Origin: Phycisphaerae bacterium
GTDB taxonomy: Bacteria > Planctomycetota > Phycisphaerae > Phycisphaerales > SM1A02
DNA length: 38,500 nt
Reading direction: 5' to 3'
Assembly (NCBI GenBank): GCA_016873275.1
Contig: VGXO01000028.1
Location: forward strand, 1-38,500
The notes under the pieces were generated by a model that made no database searches, was not told the origin of the DNA, and was given only the letters and a program-made list of their open reading frames with translations. A program made the translations under genes and the position numbers. The stretch's first letter is position 1; each line of letters opens with the position of its first letter. Positions 28,836 through 32,544 of the stretch are shown here, piece by piece.

Positions 28836-29729
28836 ATGTCCGCCTCCGCCTCCGGTTCCATCCCGGCGCCGACCATGCCCAGCACCATCATCGACGGCAA
28901 GTCCCTCGCGGCGACCGTCCGCGAGGACGTCGCGCGGCGGGTCGCGGCGCTCAAGACCTCGGGGCGGAGCGTGCGGCTCGACGCGGTGCTCGCCGGCGGC
29001 GACCGCGCCGCGGAGCTCTACGCGGAGAGCCAGGCGAGGACCTGCACGGCGGTCGGGATCGACTACCGGCTGCACCGCCTTCCGGAGGACGCCACCTACG
29101 AGGACGTCGCCGGGCGGGTGCTCCTCCTCGACACCGACGACTCCGTGCGGGCGATCATGGTGCACCTGCCGCTGCCGCTCGGCGTCGACACCGAGCGGGT
29201 GCAGTCGCTGATCGTCCCGGAGAAGGACGTCGAGGGCGTCAACCCCGCGAACATCGGAAACGTCGTCTACGGTCGCCGCAGCCTCGTGCCCTGCACGGCG
29301 CGGGCGGTGCTCGAGATGATCGAGTCGACCGGCATCGAGCTCCGTGGCAAGCGGTGCGTCGTCGTCGGGGCGAGCAACATCGTCGGCAAGCCGATCGCCG
29401 TGCTCCTGATGCGCGCGGAGGCGACGGTGATCTCGACCAACAAGTTCACCCGCGATCTTCCCTCGATCGCCCGCGAGGCGGACGTGCTCGTCGCGGCGGC
29501 GGGGGTGCCGCGGCTCGTCGACTCGTCGTGGGTGAAGCCCGGCGGCGTGGTCATCGACGTCGGCATCCATCGGATCGACGGTCCCTCCGGCGTGCAGACC
29601 GTCGGCGACGTGAACTTCGAGTCGGTGCAGGGCGTGGCGGGTCACCTCTCGCCGGTCCCGGGGGGCGTGGGACCGATGACCGTCGCGATGCTGCTTCGCA
29701 ACTGCGTGGACGCCGCGGAGCGGGGATGA
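28836..29729 (+). CDS. FolD-like methylene-THF dehydrogenase with altered cyclohydrolase site
   Basis: 297 residues. Overall a clear FolD: IIDGKSLAATVREDV, LPLPLGVDTERV, VVVGASNIVGKPIAVLLM (NADP site), FTRDLPSIAREADVLVAAAGVP, VIDVGIHRI and the signature PVPGGVGPMTVAMLLRN. Three active-site positions are changed, using E. coli FolD for comparison (Tyr50, Lys54, Gln98, Asp121): Tyr62 is kept, but the catalytic Lys is Gln66 (YAESQARTC), Gln of QLPLP is His110, and Asp of KDVDG is Glu133. The Lys is needed for the cyclohydrolase step, so this may be a dehydrogenase-only enzyme. ATG 28836 is supported by the adjacent -10; ATG 28875 is the conserved-core alternative. Convergent with purC. Confidence 0.9.
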   Translation: MSASASGSIPAPTMPSTIIDGKSLAATVREDVARRVAALKTSGRSVRLDAVLAGGDRAAELYAESQARTCTAVGIDYRLHRLPEDATYEDVAGRVLLLDTDDSVRAIMVHLPLPLGVDTERVQSLIVPEKDVEGVNPANIGNVVYGRRSLVPCTARAVLEMIESTGIELRGKRCVVVGASNIVGKPIAVLLMRAEATVISTNKFTRDLPSIAREADVLVAAAGVPRLVDSSWVKPGGVVIDVGIHRIDGPSGVQTVGDVNFESVQGVAGHLSPVPGGVGPMTVAMLLRNCVDAAERG

Positions 29730-29769: not shown

Positions 29770-30729
29770 TCAGATCGCGCCGAGCCGGCGACCGACCTCG
29801 GCATAGGCATCGAGCAAGGCGGTCTGGACGACTTCCGGCACCGCCGGTCCCGGAGGCGTCTTGTCCCATCGCCCGGCGTCCACCTCCGACTGGAGCCAGT
29901 CGCGGAGCGGCTGCTTGTCGAAGCCGCGCGGGATGACGCCCTTGCCGAGCTCCTCGGCGGGCCACCAGCGGCTGCTGTCGGGCGTGAGGATCTCGTCGAC
30001 GAGGAGCAGCTCCTCCGTCGGGCGCCCCGACGGATCGAGGGCAAGTCCGAACTCGAACTTGGTGTCGGCGAGGACCAGACCCTTTGCCGCGGCGATCTCC
30101 CGCGCCGCGGCGTAGAGGCGAAGCGTCCGGTCGCGGAGCGCCCGCATGAGCGGCTCGCCGACGACCTCAGCGCCCCGCTCGAAGGAGATGTTCTCGTCGT
30201 GACCCTCGGCGGCCTTCGTCGCGGGAGTGAAGATCGGCTCGGGGAACGCATCCCCCGGTCGCAGGCCCGCGGGGAGCCGCACGCCGCAGGCGGTGCCGTG
30301 GCGGCGGTACTCCGCGAGCGCGCTTCCGGCGAGGAAGCCACGGGCGACGCACTCGATCGGCACGACCTTCGCGGCGCGGCAGACCATGATCCGGTCGCGG
30401 AGCAGGGGGCGGTCCTCGGGACGAAGCTGCGGCACTGCATCCACGTCGGCGTGGATCACGTGATCGGGGACGATCCCGAGGCGACGCAGGCGACGGAACC
30501 ACCAGAGGCTGATCTGGGTGAGCAGCCGACCCTTGCCCGGCGCCGCCTCCGGCAGCACGACGTCGAAGGCGCTCACCCGGTCGGTCGCGATCACGAGGAG
30601 CCGGCGGCCGCCATCGAGGTCGGGCGGCAGCTCGTAGAGGTCGCGCACCTTGCCGGTCCGCCGTCCCGGGAGCGCGAGGTTCGTCGAGGAGATTGCGACC
30701 TCCCGGGTCGAGAGGACGGAGACGTTCAT
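29770..30729 (-). CDS. purC: Phosphoribosylaminoimidazole-succinocarboxamide synthase
   Basis: 319 residues. Joins CAIR with aspartate using ATP in purine synthesis. Seen: GRRTGKVRDLYEL (ATP loop), ATDRVSAFDVVLPEA, PIECVARGFLAGSALAEYRRHG, IFTPATKAAEGHDENIS, LADTKFEFG and LVDEILTPDSSRWWPAEE. ATG 30729 has GGAG about 10 nt upstream; the ATG nine bases earlier (30738) is too close to the SD. The long form (about 300 residues, as in yeast) rather than the short 240-residue form. Complete, with no missing motif. Confidence 0.95.
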   Translation of the reverse strand: MNVSVLSTREVAISSTNLALPGRRTGKVRDLYELPPDLDGGRRLLVIATDRVSAFDVVLPEAAPGKGRLLTQISLWWFRRLRRLGIVPDHVIHADVDAVPQLRPEDRPLLRDRIMVCRAAKVVPIECVARGFLAGSALAEYRRHGTACGVRLPAGLRPGDAFPEPIFTPATKAAEGHDENISFERGAEVVGEPLMRALRDRTLRLYAAAREIAAAKGLVLADTKFEFGLALDPSGRPTEELLLVDEILTPDSSRWWPAEELGKGVIPRGFDKQPLRDWLQSEVDAGRWDKTPPGPAVPEVVQTALLDAYAEVGRRLGAI

Positions 30730-30803
30730 GCGGGGCATTCTCCGGCGCCGGTCGAGGCGGCGCGCCGAACCGCCGCGGCGACGGGACGCGCACCCCCGAC
30801 CGC

Positions 30804-31023: not shown

Positions 31024-32544
31024 ATGAGTACCTGGCTCTTCCGCCTCGAGGAGGAGGACGGGGTCACGCCCGACCTCGCGGCTCGAGCCATCGGTCTTGG
31101 CGCCGACGGCCTGCCGATCCCGGGTCGAGCAACGCTCGAGCCGGCAGGGCTTCTCCGCCTCGAGACGCGCGAGTCGGGCACGGCGGCGCTCTCGCTCCCG
31201 ATCGACGCGGGCCCGGCGGGAGTCCTCCGCCTGCAGACCACCCTGCTGCCGCCACGGACCGAGCCGTATCCGCTCCTCTACGAGCTGGCCCGGCACCGGA
31301 TCAAGCTCTATCTCGCCAAGGGCGAGGAGTGGGGGATGTTCGAGGGCGAACTTGCACCCGACGCCACCGCGCGCTTCGAGGAGGCGCGAGACCTGCTCGG
31401 TCGGGCGACCACCGAGCCGGATCCCCGTCGCTCCGCTCGCCTTGCGCGAGAGAGCCTCATCGCCGGACTCGATGCGTCGGAGCGCCTCGCCTCGGCGCAC
31501 GCGCGGATCCAGATCCGCCGCAAGTACTCCGGGAAGAAGGTGTCCGACGCCTCGTTCGGGCTCGAGATCGACCTCGCCCTACCTCCGAAGCTCGCCGAGT
31601 CCAGGCATCTCGAGCCGTTCGGTCTGGTCTCGCTGCCGGTCCGTTGGGCGGAGATCGAGCCGAGCCAGGGACGCTTCGCCTTCGATCGCCTCGACCGCTG
31701 GATGGTCGCGCTCTCGAGGGCCCGTCGGCGGATCCTGTGCGGTCCGCTCGTCGACCTCTCGCTCGACTTCCTGCCGGACTGGGTGCTCGCCCGCCGCGGC
31801 GATGCGTCGGCGGTGCGCGACGCTGCGTTCGCCTTCGCCGAGCAGATGGTCACCCGCTACCGCGGCGCCGTCGCCCTCTGGAACATCGCGTCGGGACTCG
31901 CCTCGTCGGCGTCCGACGACGACGAGGTCACCCGCGCGATCGCGCTCGTGCGGATGGCGAGCGTGCTGGTGCGGCAGCTGCATCCGGAGGGCAAGATCCT
32001 CATCGAGATCACCGATCCCTTCGCGGAGCGGCGGTGGATGAAGCCCGAGGGGATCGGTCCGCTGCGCTTCATCCGGCGCATCGGCGAGGAGGGCATTCAC
32101 TTCGACTCGGTGGGGTTGCGCCTGGTCATGGGCGAGAGCGTCGAGGGGTGCCGCGACCTCGCGGAGCTCGCGGCGCTTGCCGATCGGTTCGTGAACCCGG
32201 AGCGGCACGTGGTGGTGACCGCGCTCGGGGCACCTTCCGAGCCGTGCGCCGGCGACCCCAGCGGATGGCATGGGGCGTGGGATCCGCTCCGGCAGGCGGC
32301 GTGGCTCGGCGAGGCGCTGCCGATCCTCCTCGCGCGACCTCGCTTCACCGCGGTCGCGTGGAGCGCCCTCCTCGATCGCGCGGACCACCCCGGACGAGCC
32401 GGGCTCTACGACGCGTCCGGTCGGGCAAAGCCCGCCGCCTCGAGGTTCGAGGCGATCCGAGAGGCGCTTCGCGGGGAGGCGCTCGAGCTTCCCGACGGGC
32501 TGTTCCAGGCGCATCGACCGACGAGCCCGCGGGTCGAGCGATGA
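31024..32544 (+). CDS. GH10-fold (xylanase-like) protein lacking both catalytic glutamates
   Basis: 506 residues, no signal peptide, so cytosolic. Residues 1-165 form an unrecognised N-terminal domain. From about 195 the sequence follows a GH10 TIM barrel: VRWAEIEPSQGRFAFDRLDRW (the WxxxEPxxGxFxFxxxD strand), GPLVDLSLDFLPDWV (in place of HxLxWxxxxPxW), then ALWNIASG at 285-291 where GH10 has W-D-V-V-N-E (acid/base Glu), and VVVTALGAP at 396-404 where GH10 has ITELD (nucleophile Glu). The 110-residue spacing matches the family. The end (AVAWSALLDRADHPGRAGLYDASGRAKPAA) matches WGxxD...LxDxxGxxKPA. Both Glu are absent, so glycosidase activity is unlikely. ATG overlap couples it to the next gene. 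Confidence 0.75.
   Translation: MSTWLFRLEEEDGVTPDLAARAIGLGADGLPIPGRATLEPAGLLRLETRESGTAALSLPIDAGPAGVLRLQTTLLPPRTEPYPLLYELARHRIKLYLAKGEEWGMFEGELAPDATARFEEARDLLGRATTEPDPRRSARLARESLIAGLDASERLASAHARIQIRRKYSGKKVSDASFGLEIDLALPPKLAESRHLEPFGLVSLPVRWAEIEPSQGRFAFDRLDRWMVALSRARRRILCGPLVDLSLDFLPDWVLARRGDASAVRDAAFAFAEQMVTRYRGAVALWNIASGLASSASDDDEVTRAIALVRMASVLVRQLHPEGKILIEITDPFAERRWMKPEGIGPLRFIRRIGEEGIHFDSVGLRLVMGESVEGCRDLAELAALADRFVNPERHVVVTALGAPSEPCAGDPSGWHGAWDPLRQAAWLGEALPILLARPRFTAVAWSALLDRADHPGRAGLYDASGRAKPAASRFEAIREALRGEALELPDGLFQAHRPTSPRVER

Follow-up and report, generated by a model that had tools for sequence, protein, structure and literature searches.

The window, a stretch of 38,500 nucleotides from a Phycisphaerae bacterium, carries a folD-like gene that we call Gln-type, after the glutamine that stands in place of the catalytic lysine, and FolDs that keep the lysine are called Lys-type. 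The features of this locus are given in Table 1. The gene product matches solved FolD structures over nearly its full length, with 3l07 as the best match (E 3.8e-63) and E. coli FolD at E 1e-61 (1b0a), and it passes both curated Pfam cut-offs (PF00763, 96.6 vs 32.8 bits; PF02882, 204.5 vs 27 bits). The true start may be Met14 (28875), which aligns with the start of E. coli FolD, and the finding is unaffected by this choice. As to the surroundings, 10 of 27 relatives' loci have a purC match no more than 1.5 kb from the Gln-type folD, and a 506-aa ORF at 31024–32544 of the window has no Pfam match at E 0.001.

Table 1. Features of the folD locus, with positions counted from the first nucleotide of the window
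Feature	Position	Strand	Basis
folD-like gene (297 aa); Gln-type FolD, predicted to be a dehydrogenase-only methylene-THF dehydrogenase	28836..29729	+	ORF, structure matches, Pfam
Tyr62 codon (= E. coli Tyr50), kept	29019..29021	+	1b0a alignment; Tyr in 113/113 Gln-type and 142/142 Lys-type rows
Gln66 codon, replaces catalytic Lys54	29031..29033	+	1b0a alignment, relatives
His110 codon, replaces Gln98	29163..29165	+	1b0a alignment; change reported as identical to the E. coli Q98H mutant (PMC5688156)
Glu133 codon, replaces Asp121	29232..29234	+	1b0a alignment, relatives
Ala155-x-Ala157, replaces Pro-x-Gly of Lys-type FolDs; adjoins Thr154	29298..29306	+	row comparison
purC (SAICAR synthase), convergent neighbour, context only	29770..30738	-	

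Active-Site Residues of the Window FolD

The alignment with 1b0a is ungapped between residues 62 and 133, and the residue pairs that it gives are therefore unambiguous: Tyr50 pairs with Tyr62, Lys54 with Gln66, Gln98 with His110, and Asp121 with Glu133. This is the pattern that the initial annotation had read from the letters, and the same alignment bears out its remark that PVPGGVGPMTVAML is intact. In the bifunctional enzymes, the lysine is described as the general acid/base of hydrolysis, held by the glutamine, with the aspartate binding the pterin (PMC3338484, PMC3368264), and both the lysine and the glutamine are said to contribute to the dehydrogenase step as well (PMC3368264). The window FolD has Gln66 where the YxxxK motif of bifunctional FolDs has its catalytic lysine, and both the lysine-positioning Gln98 and the pterin-binding Asp121 are absent, with His110 and Glu133 in their places. 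The Ala-x-Ala change follows Thr154, which by offset is position 142 in E. coli and Pseudomonas numbering (Ala155 and Ala157 are, again by offset, positions 143 and 145 in E. coli numbering), and in the account given of Pseudomonas FolD, the head group of a docked inhibitor contacts Thr142 and Asp121 (PMC3338484). Both Pfam domains, the nucleotide loop, PVPGGVGPMT, and the catalytic-site tyrosine are shared with bifunctional FolDs (E. coli 1b0a and human MTHFD1 DC301), whereas Lys54, Gln98, Asp121, and the Pro-x-Gly after the pocket threonine are altered in the window FolD, and its cyclohydrolase activity is predicted to be absent.

Two of these positions are also those of the carolacton-resistant E. 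coli mutants K54N and Q98H, the latter being the identical change; structure 5o2a, which is among the matches of the window FolD, is given as that of the Q98H mutant (PMC5688156). The reported activities are, for K54N, about 19% dehydrogenase with cyclohydrolase below detection and, for Q98H, 8% dehydrogenase with about 1% cyclohydrolase (PMC5688156). Unlike these single mutants from the laboratory, whose dehydrogenase activity is reduced (PMC5688156), the window FolD carries a natural, co-inherited set of changes. With positions 54 and 98 both changed, hydrolysis is very unlikely, while dehydrogenation can survive, and as the E. coli single mutants lost most of their dehydrogenase activity as well, we assume compensating changes in this subfamily. 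The NCBIfam models that match the window FolD number 37, and the best 25 of the 37 all say bifunctional. This label is probably wrong, since the cyclohydrolase residues are gone and since, as described below, the genomes that depend on such a FolD nearly always have a separate gene.

Inheritance and Spread of the Gln-Type Subfamily

The genome that contains the window (the own genome) and 40 relatives were searched together, giving a FolD match in 36 of the 41 genomes. In the window copy and 27 relatives (58–74% identity), both Gln66 and Glu133 are found in 28/28 and His110 in 27/28 (L029 has Phe), and the presence of the same changes in all 27 relatives read leads us to reject a sequencing or assembly error. 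On the scale of the phylum, a draw of 393 genomes gave a FolD match in 381, and 173 Planctomycetota loci from 168 genomes were read; as these loci come from among the best of the listed matches to the window protein, FolDs distant from it are under-sampled. Among the matches listed, 105 loci combine Gln66 with Glu133 and 68 combine Lys66 with Asp133, and none of the 173 has a mixed Gln/Asp or Lys/Glu pair. Outside the set of Planctomycetota FolDs read are the second ones of G183, G150, and G218, those of G375, and the third of G415.

When the rows from all sources are compared (113 distinct Gln-type and 142 distinct Lys-type rows), Glu133 is present in 112 of the 113 Gln-type rows, with Asp in the remaining one, and Ala155 and Ala157 are present in 109 and 108 of them, whereas all 142 Lys-type rows have Pro and Gly at these two positions. 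Position 110 varies among the 113 Gln-type rows (77 His, 24 Gln, 4 Asn, 4 Ser, and one each of Phe, Thr, Ala, and Met), and His110 is thus not a defining change. The initial annotation had asked whether its three changes are fixed among homologues, and this holds for Gln66 and Glu133 within the clade but not for His110. It had also considered that a neighbouring position might supply the lost lysine. We see no sign of this, as no lysine position is particular to the Gln type across the 113 and 142 rows: Lys makes up 50% or more of the Gln-type rows at positions 130, 185, and 234 alone, all of which are mostly Lys in Lys-type rows as well, and position 68, an Arg in the window FolD, is mostly Lys or Arg in both types alike.

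In a quick maximum-likelihood tree of 111 hand-chosen rows out of 283 (three positions blanked, no bootstrap, unrooted), all 50 Gln-type rows fall on one side of a single branch (SH-aLRT 96). Because the Gln type forms one branch, the many Gln-type genomes amount to few independent events. The FolD of L165, from Bipolaricaulota, branches beside the Gln-type clade (support 85); it has kept Lys54 and the aspartate and has Glu in place of Gln98, and may be an intermediate, and its genome contains an FTCD_C protein (222-aa frame). The Armatimonadota FolD L146 has Gln at position 54 and the aspartate kept at 121, while L153, labelled 'uncultured Phycisphaera sp.', groups with the window's family. 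A cross-phylum pattern scan of named genomes, which is a sample rather than a census, covered at least 80 loci and gave 69 Lys-Gln-Asp, 9 Gln with Glu, 1 Gln-Gln-Asp, and 1 Lys-Glu-Asp, and the Gln54/Glu121 subfamily was found in several Planctomycetota groups, Omnitrophota, SAR324, and Rhizobiales.

Folate One-Carbon Genes and Co-Occurrence with FTCD_C

The search for a second canonical folD, fchA, or fhs that the initial annotation had proposed was run on the own genome, which has 3.23 Mb and is rated 100% complete with 1.14% contamination. It returned a single FolD match, and hence no second canonical folD, no match to Fhs, and one stand-alone FTCD_C/FchA-like protein, encoded by a 224-aa ORF behind pheT and away from folD; FTCD_N has no match in this genome, fused or elsewhere, and purH is present. 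Fhs as the rescuing enzyme was also sought among the 41 genomes, of which three have it over cut-off (G013, G021, and G040) and a further one, G020, has one weak match below cut-off. The FTCD_C match of the FchA-like protein is strong (E 1.9e-42; 145.9 bits vs a Pfam cut-off of 24.5), and its best solved structure is the methenyl-THF cyclohydrolase 7vg4 (E 1.2e-19), ahead of the formimino-THF cyclodeaminases 1o5h and 1tt9. We regard it as a divergent member, because it is below the cut-off of the NCBI FchA equivalog NF045657 (102.8 vs 275 bits). All 25 relatives' proteins compared retain its PGGG and SD motifs, and on the evidence of such motifs FchA is under constraint; a pheT match lies beside fchA in 18 of the 25 relatives' loci.

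By homology, these findings agree with the earlier expectation that the cell would need a separate cyclohydrolase or formyl-THF ligase, in that an FchA-like protein is present and Fhs was not found. The combination of one FolD, no Fhs, an FchA-like protein, and no FTCD_N also supports, as far as sequence can take it, the proposal of a bacterial monofunctional dehydrogenase. The alternative proposed alongside it was an enzyme for another pterin, by which the window FolD would use some different pterin or folate analogue instead of serving as the cell's methylene-THF dehydrogenase. Such a reading could draw on the replacement of the pterin-binding Asp121 by Glu and on the altered Pro-x-Gly beside the pocket threonine. 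However, this is the sole FolD found in a genome rated complete that has purH, whose product uses 10-formyl-THF, and has no Fhs match, such that methylene-THF would have no other known connection to 10-formyl-THF, and we therefore consider this alternative extremely improbable.

Turning to co-occurrence, FTCD_C is found in 34 of the 41 genomes; the FolDs of the remaining 7 are all of a distant kind (35–38% identity), and the 5 without a FolD match all have FTCD_C. Among the Planctomycetota matches listed, FTCD_C is present in 98 of the 100 genomes in which the FolDs read are all Gln-type, vs 25 of the 65 with Lys-type FolD only (Fisher test on the matches listed, p about 1e-18, with relatedness ignored). 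As this test ignores relatedness and the tree shows one change, we give the clade contrasts more weight than the Fisher value. The two Gln-type genomes without an FTCD_C match are G294, which is in 790 contigs, and G183, a single contig with a second FolD match outside those read. We note that G150, G183, and G218, from one genus of family f44, have two FolD matches each and are not among the FTCD_C matches; by the co-occurrence rule, one FolD copy of each should be Lys-type.

The rule runs in one direction: FTCD_C can be predicted from a Gln-type FolD, but a Gln-type FolD cannot be predicted from FTCD_C. Of the 25 Lys-type genomes with FTCD_C among the matches listed, 22 carry FTCD_N as well; of the other three, G010 contains a fused FTCD, and an FTCD_N match is missing from G061 and G259. 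In G192, G222, G240, and G287, FTCD_C is in a short ORF on a contig other than that of FTCD_N. As Lys-type genomes carry FTCD_C as well, mostly with FTCD_N, its presence alone fails as a marker of the split and is no proof of it. FTCD_N also occurs on the Gln-type side, being positive in 20 of the 88 genomes searched among the 98 with Gln-type FolD and FTCD_C in the matches listed (the other 10 lie outside the draw). Three genomes among the matches listed (G022, G026, and G039) have both FolD types and FTCD_C. In these, the Lys-type folD adjoins an FTCD with an FTCD_N match (loci L036, L034, and L033, respectively), and a separate FTCD_C is kept besides it; a Lys-type copy is thus not always coupled to the loss of FchA, and each genome has two folate one-carbon modules, one of them perhaps for histidine degradation.

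The window's order, to which 77 genomes of the 393-genome draw belong, provides a natural control in the form of a contrast between Gln-type FolD with fchA and Lys-type FolD without it. FTCD_C is present in all 61 genomes of families f1, f2, and f4, and in none of the 16 genomes of f5 and f6. In the former group, 58 genomes read as Gln-type, G002 and G020 have no FolD match, and G375 has only weaker, unread ones; in the latter, all FolD matches are weaker (E 1e-44 to 1e-52), and the six that were read (G028, G029, G033, G036, G037, and G040) are all Lys-type. No FTCD_N match was found in any of the 77 genomes, which disfavours a role of FTCD_C in histidine degradation within this order.

The contrast also bears on the possibility that the Gln-type enzyme is still bifunctional, with Gln66, His110, and Glu133 hydrolysing methenyl-THF by another arrangement and FchA employed otherwise. 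A remodelled site would likewise be inherited as a set, as these changes are, and either the histidine or the glutamate might serve as a base. The near-constant presence of FTCD_C beside Gln-type FolDs (the 98 of 100 genomes among the matches listed) and its absence from the 16 f5 and f6 genomes of the same order argue against it, however, and position 110 drifts between His, Gln, Asn, Ser, Phe, and others in a manner unlike that of a new catalytic residue. Considering also the reported effects of K54N (no detectable cyclohydrolase) and Q98H (about 1%) in E. coli (PMC5688156), we find a retained cyclohydrolase activity unlikely.

Across phyla, FTCD_C was searched in 34 of the at least 80 named genomes, including all 10 Gln-type genomes among the matches listed. 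Where the Gln-type protein is the sole FolD match, FTCD_C is present in 5/5 of those listed (L143, L145, and L153 of Planctomycetota, L146 of Armatimonadota, and L180 of Omnitrophota), with fchA immediately upstream of the Gln-type folD in L146 and L180. Where a Lys-type FolD accompanies it, FTCD_C is present in 0/5 of those listed (L152 of SAR324, L169, L181, and L187 of Mesorhizobium, and L188 of Hyphomicrobiales), and these Rhizobiales and SAR324 genomes hold the Gln-type FolD as an extra copy. Of the 23 Lys-type named genomes searched among the matches listed, 3 have FTCD_C over cut-off. Genes coding for FAD-binding and Fe-S cysteine-rich domains lie near the Gln-type folD of L169, and that of L152 has a DAO-GcvT fusion, a Rieske oxygenase, and a creatinase-like gene as neighbours, a setting that would suit the oxidation of methylene-THF from demethylation.

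A further possibility is that spontaneous hydrolysis of methenyl-THF makes the loss of cyclohydrolase tolerable, in which case the FTCD_C protein could be a formimino-THF cyclodeaminase or unrelated. E. coli FolD mutants with low or no cyclohydrolase activity do survive, and spontaneous hydrolysis is cited by the authors of that study (PMC5688156). Nevertheless, the lack of FTCD_N in the 77 genomes of the window's order in the draw, the methenyl-THF cyclohydrolase as best structure match of the FTCD_C protein, and the position of fchA directly upstream of the Gln-type folD in genomes of two other phyla all weigh against this possibility, which we judge to be very unlikely.

Proposed Division of Labor and Its Significance

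The sequence changes, their inheritance, the gene content, and the co-occurrence are established. Against this background, it is very probable that the window FolD is a monofunctional methylene-THF dehydrogenase working with FchA. In the mechanism that we propose, FolD would keep the NAD(P)-dependent oxidation of 5,10-methylene-THF to 5,10-methenyl-THF, while the hydrolysis of methenyl-THF to 10-formyl-THF would be lost or nearly lost in this protein, because the general acid/base lysine is replaced by glutamine. The changes Asp121 to Glu, Gln98 to His, and Pro-x-Gly to Ala-x-Ala would accompany the loss of the lysine around the pterin site, and those at 121 and 143/145, being co-inherited, may restore dehydrogenase efficiency. 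Hydrolysis would then fall to an unrelated enzyme encoded separately, namely the stand-alone FchA of the FTCD_C family, which would feed purine synthesis. We infer both activities, the partner role of FchA, and the direction of evolution.

That the two reactions can be divided between two proteins is already known elsewhere, and it is this FolD subfamily that is the new part. The FolD of Clostridium perfringens, in work by Aluri et al. from 2016, is reportedly a monofunctional dehydrogenase with a separate FchA. The division of labor appears to be the same, the likeness being one of description rather than of residues 54, 98, and 121; unlike the own genome, C. perfringens also has Fhs, which is named in the title of that paper. 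Yeast MTD1, going by the title of a 2005 paper by Wagner, is said to be a monofunctional NAD-dependent methylene-THF dehydrogenase. By the account of the initial annotation, MTD1 reads KDVEG. Its structure (1edz) is matched by the window FolD at E 1.5e-18, and it is a dehydrogenase-only FolD homologue, as is predicted for the window FolD, but a distant one. A bacterial monofunctional methylene-THF dehydrogenase is also described in Peptostreptococcus productus (PMC6443876), which is again likened to the window FolD by description and not by sequence, and in the Wood-Ljungdahl pathway as set out by a marine anammox study, fchA and folD are listed as distinct steps (PMC12213060). In a literature search beyond which most subscription papers lay, we found no Gln/Glu FolD subfamily and no link of such a FolD to fchA outside acetogens, and neither 'FchA' nor 'Planctomyc' occurs in the main text of a 2024 cross-life survey of this gene family (PMC11064299).

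Taking the spread of the subfamily into account, we lean toward a broader account, in which a subfamily of single origin (Gln54, Glu121, Thr-Ala-x-Ala) makes the FolD/FchA split the main route to 10-formyl-THF in large Planctomycetota groups and some Omnitrophota and Armatimonadota, has reached rhizobia and SAR324 by horizontal transfer as an additional copy with dehydrogenase activity alone, and, in two families of the window's order, has given way to a single enzyme for both reactions while fchA was lost. Bacteria with this subfamily would also be insensitive to carolacton at the target. Carolacton is reported to bind through Lys54 of FolD (PMC5688156), and the predicted target-level insensitivity, if true, follows from the loss of this lysine anchor. 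FolD is annotated as bifunctional almost automatically, and a short residue signature would flag the exceptions and correct the one-carbon models of whole bacterial groups. The subfamily would also supply natural proteins in which two activities have been separated by evolution, and it would explain why fchA is retained in bacteria that are not acetogens.
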